12,149 nucleotides of DNA from Treponema sp. GTDB lineage: Bacteria > Spirochaetota > Spirochaetia > Treponematales > Treponemataceae. Made by a program: the position numbers and the translations under genes. The stretch is from assembly GCA_017421145.1 (NCBI GenBank), contig JAFOTA010000083.1:1-12149 (forward strand), read 5' to 3'. Below the pieces are notes generated by a model. It was not told the DNA's origin, ran no database searches, and was given only the letters and a program-made list of their open reading frames with translations. The stretch's first letter is position 1; each line of letters opens with the position of its first letter. Below, piece after piece: positions 1 through 11,901 of this stretch.

Positions 1-888
1 AGCGTTTGCACTCACAGCAAGAGTAGGATTGTTTGCAAACGGCATAGCAAAACCTACATTCACAGCCAAGCCTGGAACGAATGAGTTTGAATCCTTGAGC
101 TTTGCTTCGAGAGCCATAGCATAACCGTTGTTGTAGTAATCAGCATCACCTGCAGCGGTTGCGCCTGTTTTTGCTGAACGCAAAATTACGTATCCATCAT
201 TAGCTTTTCCCTTAGTAACATAAGGGGCAGCTGTTGTTCCATCATCAGCCGTTGAAGCAACCCACCCAACATAACCAGCGCTGTTTGACCATATTTCGTA
301 ATATGTTGTTCCAGCAACAGCAGCTGTAACGTTACCAGGTGTAGAGCGGAAATCAACGTCAAATCCGAAGTTATCATCGCCGTATCCACCGACAATACCG
401 TGTTCAGCACCGGCTCCGACACCTGCAATCTGCAAAGCGTTGTCACTGTTGTCTGCTGACATGATTGCGTTAGTAACTTTGAAATCACCGACTTTTGTGT
501 CGCCGCTCATAATTCCAACGTATACAGGTCCAAAGTGAAGCTTTGCTCCAGAAACTTTGATTTTTCCGAGATTGTCTCCGTCCCAACCTGTTCCAGCACC
601 TTCTCCACCGGTTGCCGTTGCCGTAGATTTGGTCTTCAAAGCCTGTGTGACTTCAACTCCGACTTCTCCCCAGACTCCGTCGCCTTCAGTACTCTTTGTA
701 CCTTTGTTGGCAAGATTTACTTTGAATGTAGCCTCAGCCTCATTCTTGAAACCACTTGAGAATGTTCCTGCTGCAGTATCATCGAGGTCAACACCCCAAG
801 TTACTGAAGCATTACCGGAAACTTCTGCAACCTTTACGTCAGCTGTAGGCTCATCAGCGAATGAGAAGCCAGCTACCGCAGCTGCCAT
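1..888 (-). CDS. Msp-like outer sheath/outer-membrane surface protein, C-terminal part outside window
   Basis: The minus strand is open for 296 codons from the ATG at 888 to the window edge. The product starts MAAAVAGFSFADEPTADVKV and continues as Gly/Ala/Thr-rich amphipathic beta-type sequence with repeated V-x-V and Y/F-G patterns. There is a GNASVTWGVDLD stretch near residue 27, typical of the first strand of treponemal Msp-type outer-membrane proteins. This points to a beta-barrel surface protein, probably porin-like. Codon choice is strongly biased (ACA, GCT, GGT), as in a highly expressed gene. Oddity: the signal peptide seems headless. The h-region end AAAVAGFSFA and an A-D-E cleavage-type boundary are present, but there is no Met-Lys-Lys start, and no good ribosome site precedes the ATG. 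Reading upstream in the same frame gives charged, non-signal residues (S-P-E-E-R-R-G-F-L-R) with no ATG before a stop at 994-996. The recombinase stop codon sits two bases before the ATG, so expression, if any, would be by coupling to that gene. Family assignment is by recognition, and other treponemal barrel families are possible. Confidence 0.72.
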   Translation of the reverse strand, partial: MAAAVAGFSFADEPTADVKVAEVSGNASVTWGVDLDDTAAGTFSSGFKNEAEATFKVNLANKGTKSTEGDGVWGEVGVEVTQALKTKSTATATGGEGAGTGWDGDNLGKIKVSGAKLHFGPVYVGIMSGDTKVGDFKVTNAIMSADNSDNALQIAGVGAGAEHGIVGGYGDDNFGFDVDFRSTPGNVTAAVAGTTYYEIWSNSAGYVGWVASTADDGTTAAPYVTKGKANDGYVILRSAKTGATAAGDADYYNNGYAMALEAKLKDSNSFVPGLAVNVGFAMPFANNPTLAVSANA

Positions 889-890
889 TT

Positions 891-2030
891 TTATCCCAAG
901 AGACCGGAGAAAACCTCTGCGCTCTTCCGGGCTATTTCCTGCAATGCGCTTTCGTTCTGGTGGGCGGCGTAGTGTTCTATCATTTCGATCGATTTATGGC
1001 CGGTTACCAGCTGGAGTTTCCTTAAATCGATTCTGTCTGCCATGTTTGCGGAGAAAAAGTGCCGCCAGCAATGGAATGTGATTTTGCTTCCGTTTTTTAT
1101 GCCGAGCTTTTCTGCAACAGCATGCAGTTCTTTGTTCCACAGGCTTACTGAGCCGGGTTTCATGCGGTCTGTGCCGTAGAACAAGAAATTTGAAGGGCAT
1201 TGTCCGAACGGATTTTTTTCTGCATGTTCCCTGATCAGCGCAAGAAGTTTTTGGTCAACGATAATTTCCCGTTCGTTTCCGTTTTTGGGGCTTTTAAGTC
1301 CTTCTTTTCTTGCCCAGTTGTGCCTTACGAAAATCCGGTCGCGTCCTATGTCCTTGAGCTGCAGTGCCCGTACTTCTCCTATCCTCATACCAGTGCATGC
1401 GGAAATAAGATGGGCAAGCTTTGTCTGACCGTTCTGCCAATCAGCTGAAAAAATCTTCACTGCATCTTCCATGGCAGGGACAATCCGTTTTTCGGGAACG
1501 ACATGGCAGAACACGATGCCGTTGAAGCAGTTGTTTTCGGTGAGCTTGTTGTTGTATGCCCATTTGAGTGCAAGGACTGCGCATCTTACGATTTGGTTCA
1601 CCGTTTCCGGCCTTAGCATTTTCATTTCAAAAATCTGATTTCCGGATTCATCTTTTTTCTGCGTGCCTACTTTTTGTTCCTTTGCCGCCAGATTCTGCAG
1701 CCTGCGTTTTATGTCGAACACGGTTATTGATCCGAGAGGTCTTTTTCCGTATTCAGGAATCCAGTAGTTTTTTGCGCGTGACAGCATGATCGAAGCATAG
1801 CGTTTGTGGACTGACTGGCCTGCAATCCTTTTTTCAAAAAAATACGGCGACTTGTCGAAATCCCAGAAGCGTTCAAGAAAATGCCCGAATGTTTCGCTTT
1901 GCGGCGTGGAAGGAAGTATTGCTGATACTATGTATTTTTTCATTTCAAGTGCGCGGATTATCTGCCTGATTCCGTTCTGGCTCAGGTTTTTCGTGAGTAT
2001 TATTTCGCTTATCTTTTTTTCGTAGGTCAT
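891..2030 (-). CDS. Tyrosine recombinase / phage-type integrase
   Basis: This 379-residue protein has the full tyrosine recombinase layout. A SAM-like core-binding domain covers about residues 46-160. A catalytic domain follows with R216 (TGMRIGE), a probable beta-hairpin lysine K249, H320-x-x-R323 (HCWRH), H345 (TGHKS) and the nucleophile Y354 (IEHYAAH). All catalytic positions are intact, so the enzyme should be active. It would cut and rejoin DNA at a specific site, through a covalent phosphotyrosine link. The ATG start is supported by GAGGTGA a few bases upstream. Length is normal for an integrase, and the C-terminal tail after the tyrosine is complete. No excisionase, phage or conjugation gene is near: the far side is an ordinary metabolic operon. 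Its 3' end touches the truncated Msp-like gene, so it is either a solitary insertion into that gene or a recombinase acting on it. The partner DNA site is not identifiable from this window alone. Confidence 0.95.
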   Translation of the reverse strand: MTYEKKISEIILTKNLSQNGIRQIIRALEMKKYIVSAILPSTPQSETFGHFLERFWDFDKSPYFFEKRIAGQSVHKRYASIMLSRAKNYWIPEYGKRPLGSITVFDIKRRLQNLAAKEQKVGTQKKDESGNQIFEMKMLRPETVNQIVRCAVLALKWAYNNKLTENNCFNGIVFCHVVPEKRIVPAMEDAVKIFSADWQNGQTKLAHLISACTGMRIGEVRALQLKDIGRDRIFVRHNWARKEGLKSPKNGNEREIIVDQKLLALIREHAEKNPFGQCPSNFLFYGTDRMKPGSVSLWNKELHAVAEKLGIKNGSKITFHCWRHFFSANMADRIDLRKLQLVTGHKSIEMIEHYAAHQNESALQEIARKSAEVFSGLLG

Positions 2031-5404: not shown

Positions 5405-6706
5405 ATGGTAATAGCTTCAATAGATTTAAAAGACGGACATGTAGTTCAGCTGAAAAACGGTAAGGATCTGGTTCTCCAGAGGGATGATGCAGACAATCTT
5501 ATCGCTGATTTCAATAAATACGGCGAAGTTGCTGTCATTGACCTTGATGCGGCGATGAGGCATGCTGACGAAAAAGGAAACACCGCAAACACGGAGCTTT
5601 TGAAATCTCTTTTGCGGAAGGGAAACGTGCGTGTCGGCGGAGGAATAAGAACCGTAAAGCAGGCGCGTAAGCTCATTTCGCTTGGTGCAGAAAAAGTCAT
5701 AATCGGTTCTGCGGCTTGGAATCCTGAAAGAAAATCTGATTCAGATCCTATACTCAACGTTGAATTCCTTGAAGAGCTTGTTCAGGCAATAGGAAAACAG
5801 CGCGTGATTATTTCCGTGGATTCAATCAACGGGAAGATTGCGCTCAAGGGATGGACGGAAACCGCTGACATTTCTTTGATCGACGGTGCCAAGGCTGCTG
5901 AAAAATATGCTTCCGAGCTTTTGTTCACATGCGTTGAAAAAGAAGGATGCATGCAGGGAACGGACATGGAAAAAGTCAGGGAGCTTCGTTCTTCCGTAAG
6001 CTGCCGTGTCGTTGCCGCTGGCGGGGTTAATTCGCTTGAGCAGATTGTGGAGCTTGAAAAACTCGGCTGCGACGTTCAGCTTGGAATGGCTTTGTATACC
6101 GGAAAAGTGAGCCTGAAAGATTCGTTTGTCGGCTGCCTGAATTTTGAAAAGACAAACGGGATGATTCCTGTGATTGCCCAGGGCGTTAACGGCGAAGTCC
6201 TTATGATGGGCTATTCAAACAAGGAAGCTTTTGAAAAGACTTTTGAGACTGGCCATCTTACGTTCTTCAGCAGGACGCGCAACAAGCTTTGGACAAAGGG
6301 CGAAACAAGCGGACATTTCCTTGAAGTAAAAAAACTACGCGTTGATTGTGACCGTGATACAGTCCTTGCAACTGTAGTACCGAACGGCGGTGCATGTCAT
6401 ACAGGAAGCTGGACATGTTTCGGCTCCGATCCTGATGCCCCCAGCACTCTCGAAAGATTGTACGGAACCATTTCACAGCGCTTTGCAAATCCTCGTCCGG
6501 GAAGCTACACTGCAACCTTGAACGATGAGCGTGTGCGTGAAAAAGTAATGGAAGAAGCTGAAGAGCTGACCGAAGCAGACGGAAAAGATGAGGTTGTCTG
6601 GGAAGCCGCCGACCTTTTGTATTTCGTCTCAGTCCTTATGTACAAAGAGGGCGTTGAATGGAAAGACGTTCTCGATGAACTGGACAAAAGGCACAAGGAA
6701 AAATAA
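5405..6706 (+). CDS. hisA-hisIE: Trifunctional histidine biosynthesis protein: HisA-HisI-HisE fusion
   Basis: One 433-residue chain carries three enzymes of histidine synthesis. Residues 1-245 are the (beta/alpha)8 isomerase HisA (ProFAR isomerase): IDLKDG with catalytic D7, phosphate loop VGGGIR, SVDSINGKIALKGW with D139, second phosphate loop AAGGVNS, and GMALYTGK. Residues 250-345 are HisI (PR-AMP cyclohydrolase): SRTRNKLWTKGETSGH, metal-site motif DCDRD (314-318), and CHTGSWTCF with C331, H332 and C338. Residues 347-433 are HisE (PR-ATP pyrophosphohydrolase): SYTATL, MEEAEELTEA, and EAADLLYF with D403. Domain order A-I-E is the reverse of pathway order (E, I, A). HisIE fusions are common; joining HisA in front is unusual and skips hisF, which often sits between them in operons. 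The residue matching the T-D-I aspartate of many HisA proteins is C176. No other his gene is present here. Start choice rests on alignment of IDLKDG with HisA N-termini. Confidence 0.93.
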   Translation: MVIASIDLKDGHVVQLKNGKDLVLQRDDADNLIADFNKYGEVAVIDLDAAMRHADEKGNTANTELLKSLLRKGNVRVGGGIRTVKQARKLISLGAEKVIIGSAAWNPERKSDSDPILNVEFLEELVQAIGKQRVIISVDSINGKIALKGWTETADISLIDGAKAAEKYASELLFTCVEKEGCMQGTDMEKVRELRSSVSCRVVAAGGVNSLEQIVELEKLGCDVQLGMALYTGKVSLKDSFVGCLNFEKTNGMIPVIAQGVNGEVLMMGYSNKEAFEKTFETGHLTFFSRTRNKLWTKGETSGHFLEVKKLRVDCDRDTVLATVVPNGGACHTGSWTCFGSDPDAPSTLERLYGTISQRFANPRPGSYTATLNDERVREKVMEEAEELTEADGKDEVVWEAADLLYFVSVLMYKEGVEWKDVLDELDKRHKEK

Positions 6707-10670: not shown

Positions 10671-10704
10671 AAAAAAGCTGCCCCGTATATGCCGGAACAG
10701 CTTT
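10671..10704 (-). terminator. Rho-independent terminator of the lipoprotein/outer-membrane operon
   Basis: On the minus strand AAAGCTG (10704-10698) pairs with CAGCTTT (10680-10674). An inner CCG/CGG pair extends the stem past a two-base internal mismatch, and the stem runs into a T-run. It begins 12 bases after the stop of the outer-membrane protein gene and insulates proS from read-through. Confidence 0.8.
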
Positions 10705-10716
10705 GCTTGAATTGAA

Positions 10717-11367
10717 TCAGAAATACACCGTGCATCCGATTTTGGGCATGAACGTGAAGTAGCCGACTATCATTCCGGGACCTGCTGTCAGATCTGCGGA
10801 AAGCGCTAAATGCGGGTTCAGCTTATAGTTTGCATGGATGTTCACTGCCAAAAGCATGTCGCTGTGTTCTCCAGGACGGTACAGCATGTTTATCCGGTCT
10901 TTTTTTTCATAATAAACGTTGCGCTTCCATCCTTTTTTTTCAGCCTCCTCCTCGCTCATCTGGTATTCAACATACCCTGCCAGCAGAGATGCGGAAACTG
11001 AAAACTTATCATTGTTTATGAATCTGTAACCCATTCCTCCACCGACGGTGAAAGACGAGTCAGACGTTCCTATGCTTGCAGAACCAACAAGTTCCACGCC
11101 GAAAATGTCGAGCCTGACATCGAAATCAGCGCACAGCCCCGTGCTTCCGCCGATAGACTGGAATCCGCCGTATCCTGAAAAAGAAAATCCGAAATTAGAT
11201 TTTTTCTTTGAGGAGGATTTTGCTCCTAGAATCTCATTTCCTATATCAGATGATGGAGCTGAAATTCCAGGGAACTCCGGTTGGGATGGAATCGGCTTGA
11301 AATCCTGGGCAAAAATCGTACTGACAGAAAGCAGTGCAAGAAATAACAAAATCAAGTGCTTTTTCAT
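10717..11367 (-). CDS. Small outer-membrane beta-barrel protein, function unknown
   Basis: This 216-residue protein begins with a signal peptide, KKHLILLFLALLSVSTIFA, cleaved before Q-D-F. A Pro/Ser-rich linker follows, then from about residue 55 alternating beta strands (FGFSFSGYGGFQSIGG, CADFDVRLDIFGVELVGSAS, SFTVGGGMGYRFINN, KFSVSASLLAGYVEY). It ends in aromatic Y-F, the usual C-terminal signature of barrels inserted by the BAM machinery. Size fits an eight-stranded barrel of the OmpW/OmpX class, but I see no family-specific motif. The ATG at 11367 is preferred; a GTG at 11376 (M-P-T- added) is closer to AAGG and is also possible. It is the second gene of a two-gene operon with the small lipoprotein, 19 bases or fewer away, and has its own terminator. 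Its expression should follow the poly-G promoter. Confidence 0.85.
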   Translation of the reverse strand: MKKHLILLFLALLSVSTIFAQDFKPIPSQPEFPGISAPSSDIGNEILGAKSSSKKKSNFGFSFSGYGGFQSIGGSTGLCADFDVRLDIFGVELVGSASIGTSDSSFTVGGGMGYRFINNDKFSVSASLLAGYVEYQMSEEEAEKKGWKRNVYYEKKDRINMLYRPGEHSDMLLAVNIHANYKLNPHLALSADLTAGPGMIVGYFTFMPKIGCTVYF

Positions 11368-11386: not shown

Positions 11387-11695
11387 TCAGTTCTTATACT
11401 TCACAACAACAGCACTCATGATGTAGTACTGTTTGCCGTTCAATGTTTTTCCGTCAACCAGAATGTTCACGATGTCATCGGCATTCGGATATTGTTTAAG
11501 GGCTTCTTCAAGAAGGATAGTGTATCCGCTCTGTTTTGTTTCCCTTTCAACGGTCACGCGGCCAAGGACATCCACATTTGACTTGACGACTTTGTTGTCT
11601 CCTCCAAGAAGCGGACGATAGGAAGCACAGCCCGCAAATGCCAAAGAAAGTGCAATCACACCTGCAGCCAACAGCAATTTAGAAAATCTCTTCAT
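11387..11695 (-). CDS. Small lipoprotein, function unknown
   Basis: This 102-residue lipoprotein has signal peptide KRFSKLLLAAGVIALSLAF and lipobox FAGC, followed by ASYRPLLGG. The mature domain has an alpha/beta outline, with the pattern VDVLGRVTVERETKQSGYTI, then LLEEALKQYPNADDIVNI and a final strand pair ending MSAVVVKY. I recognise this as a recurrent small-lipoprotein shape but cannot name a function. The start at 11695 is set by AAGGAG six bases upstream; an in-frame upstream start at 11716 would put the ribosome site inside the gene. It is first in the operon driven by the promoter with the G-run, and the outer-membrane barrel gene follows. Confidence 0.87.
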   Translation of the reverse strand: MKRFSKLLLAAGVIALSLAFAGCASYRPLLGGDNKVVKSNVDVLGRVTVERETKQSGYTILLEEALKQYPNADDIVNILVDGKTLNGKQYYIMSAVVVKYKN

Positions 11696-11730
11696 CTCTT
11701 TCTCCTTATTAAGCAAGATTTATGATTTTA

Positions 11731-11757
11731 ATTATACCCCCCCCATGTATTTGTCAA
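11731..11757 (-). promoter_or_regulatory. Poly-G spacer promoter, candidate phase-variable switch
   Basis: On the minus strand a perfect -35 TTGACA (11757-11752) and a perfect -10 TATAAT (11736-11731) flank a spacer of 15 bp. Positions 11744-11737 of the spacer are eight consecutive G. Upstream is very A/T-rich, like an UP element. Spacer length controls promoter strength, and a run of eight G is prone to slippage, so gain of two G would bring the spacer to the optimal 17. The start site would be near 11724, about 30 bases before the lipoprotein ATG. Confidence 0.85.
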
Positions 11758-11825: not shown

Positions 11826-11868
11826 AAAAAAAAATAAACCTGCCCGGAAACTTTGGTTTCAGGACAGG
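11826..11868 (-). terminator. Rho-independent terminator of the acidic-protein gene
   Basis: On the minus strand CCTGTCCTGAAAC (11868-11856) pairs with GTTTCCGGGCAGG (11851-11839) around a four-base loop, with one mismatch and one G-U pair. TTTATTTTTTTTT follows (11838-11826). It starts 33 bases after the stop codon at 11902. Confidence 0.92.
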
Positions 11869-11901
11869 CTTGGTTTTGTCTTGCTGATTTTCTACCGTTG
11901 T

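Follow-up and report, generated by a model that had tools for sequence, protein, structure and literature searches.

A homopolymer in the promoter spacer of a treponemal lipoprotein operon and its recurrence at envelope genes of Treponemataceae: a candidate route to phase variation

Can the DNA between two perfect promoter hexamers decide whether the genes behind them are strongly or weakly transcribed? The question is raised by a locus within a 12,149-nt stretch of Treponema sp. DNA (the window, meaning the whole stretch that was analysed). Here the minus strand, at 11757-11731, reads TTGACA AATACAT GGGGGGGG TATAAT, a predicted σ70-type promoter with a homopolymer in its spacer (Table 1). The initial annotation had described perfect -35 and -10 elements around a G8 run in a 15-nt spacer, and this is confirmed: a promoter pattern that tolerates other spacer arrangements finds one match in the window and none in 200 dinucleotide-preserving shuffles. 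Since G8 by itself is present in 14 of the 200 shuffles, it is the combination of hexamers and run, not the G8, that exceeds chance. A general promoter scan does not return this promoter, because the scan needs 16-18 nt between the hexamers and the spacer has 15. The promoter pattern has no exact counterpart in a viral collection, and the window has no Rfam match and no tRNA. By inspection, the ATG of the first gene, at 11695, lies at a normal distance from the ribosome binding site AAGGAG.

Table 1. Coordinates of the promoter, the two genes and the flanking hairpins within the window.
Feature	Position	Strand	Basis
-35 hexamer TTGACA, perfect	11752..11757	minus	sequence and pattern match
AATACAT spacer prefix, 7 nt	11745..11751	minus	sequence
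G8 tract within the 15-nt spacer, abutting the -10	11737..11744	minus	sequence
-10 hexamer TATAAT, perfect	11731..11736	minus	sequence and pattern match
Ribosome binding site AAGGAG	11702..11707	minus	inspection
Gene for a 102-aa lipoprotein, lipobox up to Cys23	11387..11695	minus	reading frame and signal/lipobox reading
Gene for a 216-aa outer-membrane barrel protein with signal peptide	10717..11367	minus	DUF481 match
Terminator-like hairpin with T tail, 3' of the second gene	10674..10704	minus	-18.3 kcal/mol, z -5.2
Terminator-like hairpin, 3' of the upstream reading frame	11836..11871	minus	-20.7 kcal/mol, z -4.1

The gene directly behind the promoter encodes a lipoprotein, not an OmpW-like protein, and a gap of 19 nt separates it from the barrel gene. 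Given this gap and a hairpin on each side, the two genes are read as a small, self-contained envelope operon that has a promoter of its own, in agreement with the earlier proposal that a lipoprotein and an outer-membrane barrel protein are expressed together. The barrel protein scores 33.0 bits against DUF481 (PF04338), above the Pfam cut-off of 21.1, and no OmpW family is listed for it in a Pfam search up to E 1. The window lipoprotein has no Pfam match and falls below the cut-off for DUF6567 (PF20205); since only a distant relative, P0070, exceeds that cut-off (29.2 bits against 27), the kinship to DUF6567 is distant. An AlphaFold2 model of the lipoprotein shows a signal helix and a small domain of beta-beta-alpha-beta-beta topology; pLDDT is at least 90 at 47 of 102 residues, and its block means are 89-97 between residues 41 and 100. 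A sequence search of the lipoprotein family against solved structures finds only vinculin chains, with E values of 0.73 or worse, and these were dismissed as noise. Elsewhere in the window, a tyrosine recombinase (891-2030, minus strand; Phage_integrase, E 2.9e-20) lies directly upstream of a partial, outer-membrane-like reading frame without a Pfam hit (1-888, minus strand), and a 433-aa reading frame (5405-6706, plus strand) is presumably a fusion of the histidine-synthesis proteins HisA and HisI/HisE.

The run need not act within a promoter. A transcript that starts farther upstream would carry it in its 5' leader, where it could affect RNA structure or translation; the window promoter is predicted from sequence, and for TprL of T. 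pallidum the cited passages of PMC7864442 give a start well upstream of the annotated codon. However, perfect hexamers stand on both sides of the run, the hairpin just upstream separates the upstream reading frame from the window promoter, and the spacers of 189 comparable sites, among the matches listed, span 13-22 nt with a constrained variance (see below). A role in the leader is therefore very unlikely.

How the spacer has fared in evolution can be followed through the lipoprotein. A protein search returns six proteins, the window's own (P0001, listed on 33 contigs) and five others, one of them from Treponema zioleckii, a species of rumen origin. Of these five, P0002 has the highest identity (67%); it is left out of the promoter comparison. 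The nearest proteins and loci belong to Treponema and Spirochaetaceae, and a scan of genome contigs yields six loci, four of them from Treponema or Spirochaetaceae and two distant ones from Lentisphaerae-type assemblies. At all four spirochete loci a homopolymer lies between the -35 and -10 elements of the lipoprotein promoter (T9, T8, G9 and T12). All four (L001-L004) also have a downstream gene for a signal-peptide product of 191-213 aa; similarity of this product to the window barrel is weak in two (L001, E 0.001; L003, E 0.019) and not detectable in L002 and L004, so that a conserved barrel partner is likely rather than established.

A relative of the lipoprotein is present in 30 of 200 genus genomes. 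Among 33 homologues (the window, L007-L010 and L012-L039; the paralogue L011, which has no run, is left out), 20 carry a spacer run of at least 8 (8 G, 11 T and 1 C) and 13 carry none, and the runs of the 19 other than the window are G8-9, T8-12 or C10. Weak homologues occur on both sides of this division (L036, L037 and L039 lack a run, whereas L038 has C10 behind a poor -35), and two entries, L019 and L020, are identical proteins. In a tree of 28 rows, built without L025, L035, L036, L038, L039 and L011 and containing two rows with very long branches, the window groups with four relatives in a supported clade (99/98), and well-supported branches force at least three changes of the G label. 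The initial annotation had held that one and the same G8 in all relatives would count against switching; the five members of this clade instead have G8 (the window), T9, T8, G9 and T12. Within the window's clade, then, a run is present in every spacer while its base and its length change. Because G, T or C can take one another's place, this suggests that what is conserved is the presence of a run in the spacer and not a particular sequence.

The finding is larger than the initial claim about one operon, for the layout recurs on lipoprotein genes of the family, with changes of the run base. In ten genomes picked for holding a lipoprotein homologue, the poly-G pattern has 27 matches and the reversed pattern none. 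Across 274 family genomes it has 334 matches (a few of which are one site counted twice) in 117 genomes against one reversed hit, and it is absent from the other 157. In a search of 392 phylum genomes a match is found in 75, namely in 45 of the 79 that lie inside the family search and in 30 of the 313 outside it, with one reversed hit in each part. A poly-C pattern gives 34 matches in 20 of the 274 genomes, with 5 reversed hits. Poly-T runs before GTATAGT, sought as TTTTTTTTGTATAGT, a pattern to which runs shorter than 8 are invisible, give 135 matches (a sum added by hand) in 75 of the 274, with 18 reversed hits; a narrower pattern, exactly T8 after C, matches in one of ten genomes. Functionless runs might of course fall into spacers by chance or mutational bias, and treponemes are rich in A and T runs according to the cited part of PMC8049484. 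Such an origin is hardly credible: the poly-G controls contradict it, with a weaker margin for poly-T, as do the presence of a run throughout the five-row clade despite the change of base and the bias toward lipoprotein genes described below.

Outside the family, genomes of 1.9-2.3 Mb have a more rigid layout in common, often ACC-G8/9-TAG, at L397-L405 and at sister places in G475, G492, G510, G526, G542, G554, G571, G578 and G584. The first gene at the nine loci read encodes a lipoprotein in six cases and a signal-peptide protein in one, two have no reading frame, and no tRNA was found at loci of this type.

The genes behind the poly-G promoters are mainly those of exported proteins. Among the matches listed, and with near-identical proteins removed, the first gene encodes a lipoprotein, as called by a crude pattern, at 116 of 177 sites and an exported protein (a lipoprotein or a signal-peptide protein) at 148. 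One fixed, crude rule assigns the class of the first gene. These 177 derive from 189 family sites, comprising the matches listed (up to G100) and those of genomes searched earlier, and 7 of them that have no reading frame are scored as misses. Among 69 control promoters, TTGACA-TAnAAT sites that lack a G run, taken from five genomes, the corresponding numbers are 4 lipoproteins and 15 exported proteins (Fisher p 5e-19 and 9e-20, respectively; both values assume independent sites, which sites of one genome or one gene family are not). The controls are of two kinds. Twenty-nine are the first listed for G202, where the reversed pattern has 21 hits against 45, so that up to half of them may not be promoters; 40 were hand-picked at 16-17 nt spacing, with fewer reversed hits, and yield 2 lipoproteins and 9 exported proteins. 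One control lipoprotein, L099, itself has a C12 run, and another, L125, looks falsely called.

The other run bases behave similarly. Poly-C sites have a lipoprotein as first gene in 17 of 28 cases and an exported protein in 23. For poly-T sites the counts are 27 and 38 of 49, and a TTG-type -35 lies at a fitting distance in 37; seven of the 27 lipoproteins are homologues of the window lipoprotein, from genomes chosen for them, and without these the lipoprotein count is 20 of 42. Poly-G sites outside the family (n=27) precede 11 lipoprotein and 16 exported genes. Smaller poly-G sets, since superseded, gave lipoproteins at 49 of 76 sites (under a looser rule) and 50 of 75. In two genomes a poly-G spacer promoter lies upstream of a Cas12a-like reading frame, by 134 nt at L211 (G053:C21) and by 104 nt at L219 (G054:C12). 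The match to Cas12a covers the first 255-265 residues (PADLOC, E 6.5e-85 and 1.4e-75; REC1 domain), and this CRISPR nuclease is possibly switched in G053 and G054.

If the runs slip, their lengths become the central matter. Of 57 pairs of related poly-G sites that share 85% identity or more, 33 have G runs of unequal length, 32 have spacers of unequal length, and 24 have equal runs (for example L062/L135 and L148/L149); since the pairs overlap and include within-genome paralogues, no statistical test is attached to these counts. The flanks of the same pairs have 80 indel events in 13,300 columns. Related sites have, for instance, G9, G10 and G8 (L060, L142 and L139) or G13 and G9 (L085 and L087), and a close trio of homologues of the lipoprotein has C4G8, C3G9 and C3G8. 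At a homologue of the lipoprotein gene, two genomes (L061 and L137) show no difference in 412 flanking columns; they differ solely inside the run, C3G9 versus C4G8, which leaves the spacer at 16. Because assemblies may misread runs, length differences between sites may in part be assembly error and are taken as support, not proof.

Spacer lengths are unusual as well. In five genomes, among the pairs listed, a 17-nt spacer is found at 0 of 35 poly-G sites versus 52 of 136 TTGACA/TATAAT pairs that lack a G run. Another comparison (13 of 145 versus 58 of 144) was set aside, as its two sides came from different genomes. At the 189 poly-G sites, among the matches listed, the spacers peak at 15-16 and 18-19 nt with a dip at 17, and the peaks are partly bound to genomes (19-21 in G053, 14-15 in G115). 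The dip coincides with the commonest length of ordinary promoters. The assembled sites thus lie mostly at least one step away from 17 nt, and these states, including the 15 nt of the window, are presumably weak. Run and prefix lengths also compensate each other: in a swap chain over the 189 sites that honours the lower limit imposed by the search pattern, the observed spacer variance (3.8, versus a mean of 5.9) lies under all 449 samples, which indicates that spacing is constrained.

Some of this would also fit a structural class of promoters that does not switch at all. In such a class the run would have a fixed length and set the twist or stiffness of the spacer, and lipoprotein promoters would respond jointly to supercoiling or to a regulator. 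G-rich DNA has a lower twist, and a G run could by this means shift the optimum spacing; the clustering of spacers around 18-19 and 15-16, away from 17, and a run that abuts the -10 element at 132 of 145 poly-G sites among the matches listed, are both in keeping with a structural role. So is constancy of length. T. zioleckii (G002) has T8 at 8 of its 9 poly-T sites, with T9 at 11 of 12 sites and T10 at one in the other genomes of that comparison, and the spacer has 19 nt at 6 of the 9 poly-G sites of G053. The near-constant T8 and 19 nt run contrary to what free slippage predicts and are the strongest points against it. However, G and T runs, which differ in shape, replace each other at one and the same place among the homologues, and some closely related sites differ in run length. 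We therefore regard a purely structural class as unlikely.

Transcriptional phase variation by slippage in the spacer homopolymer is, in our judgement, the probable explanation of the window promoter, with both slippage in the population and its effect on expression inferred from the sequence. Slippage would add G units to the run or remove them, the distance between the -35 and -10 elements would shift around its optimum, and transcription of the lipoprotein and barrel operon would rise or fall at random. The window promoter would then be one of many such promoters, shared by a sizeable minority of the Treponemataceae genomes and located for the most part before genes for lipoproteins and other exported proteins. 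With less assurance, we lean toward a broader proposal: that many Treponemataceae, including gut and rumen species, keep a genome-wide set of lipoprotein and outer-membrane genes under slippable G, T or C spacer runs. Selection would maintain the changeability itself, with runs exchanged for runs of another base, and each cell would display a random surface combination; in two genomes the set would include Cas12a.

In the literature excerpts cited here, the discussion of transcriptional phase variation in treponemes concerns the agent of syphilis, with its Tpr and OmpW proteins. If the broader proposal is true, randomly switched surface lipoproteins would be common in host-associated treponemes, including the rumen species T. 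zioleckii, and the evasion of antibodies during syphilis would then account for only part of the picture. The analysis also provides a sequence rule for candidate switched genes, a homopolymer of 7 or more between TTGACA and TAnnnT, and a named strain that carries such sites, T. zioleckii kT3.

Several known systems resemble parts of this picture; what follows on each reflects the cited portions of its source. In Neisseria meningitidis, porA has a poly-G run between its -10 and -35 elements and loses transcription when the spacing falls below 17 (as told in PMC7864442, which likens the TP0126 and tpr promoters to porA and opc); porA is a single gene, whereas the layout described here stands at many. 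Every vlp promoter of Mycoplasma hyorhinis contains an adenine run, with ON/OFF switching by indels (PMC10502178). This is likewise a promoter run across a set of lipoproteins; however, vlp is one named gene family, and the set described here covers a variety of lipoproteins and more than one run base. A study of the same genus counted homopolymers per genome in cultivable treponemes, linked them to pseudogenes and found the fewest in the commensal T. ruminis (PMC8049484), but its cited portion gives neither a promoter position nor a link to lipoproteins. In titles and abstract openings of the open-access literature, no homopolymer-spacer promoter on a lipoprotein gene is reported for the phylum outside T. 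pallidum, and nothing on point appears for homopolymers in rumen or gut treponemes.

The nearest relatives are in T. pallidum itself. Poly-G length affects transcription of surface proteins at tprE/G/J and tprL, as is proposed here; tprL has 7-11 G in vivo, and an E. coli reporter is stronger with 8 G than with 10 G (PMC7864442). These loci differ in that they encode Tpr proteins and in that not all of their runs are placed between -35 and -10 elements in the cited passages. The closest parallel is the one drawn by the initial annotation, and it holds: TP0126 (OmpW-like) has poly-G between its -35 and -10 elements and is transcribed best at 17 nt (PMC7864442). TP0126 and the window share the spacer poly-G and an outer-membrane protein, and by analogy of design the window device would work as TP0126 does. 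Yet the TP0126 passages concern G runs at single loci, and here the operon is led by a lipoprotein gene, some genomes have several sites, and the runs are of G, T or C. Thus, the mechanism is known from TP0126, and what appears to be new is a widespread set of lipoprotein promoters in which the base of the run is interchangeable.
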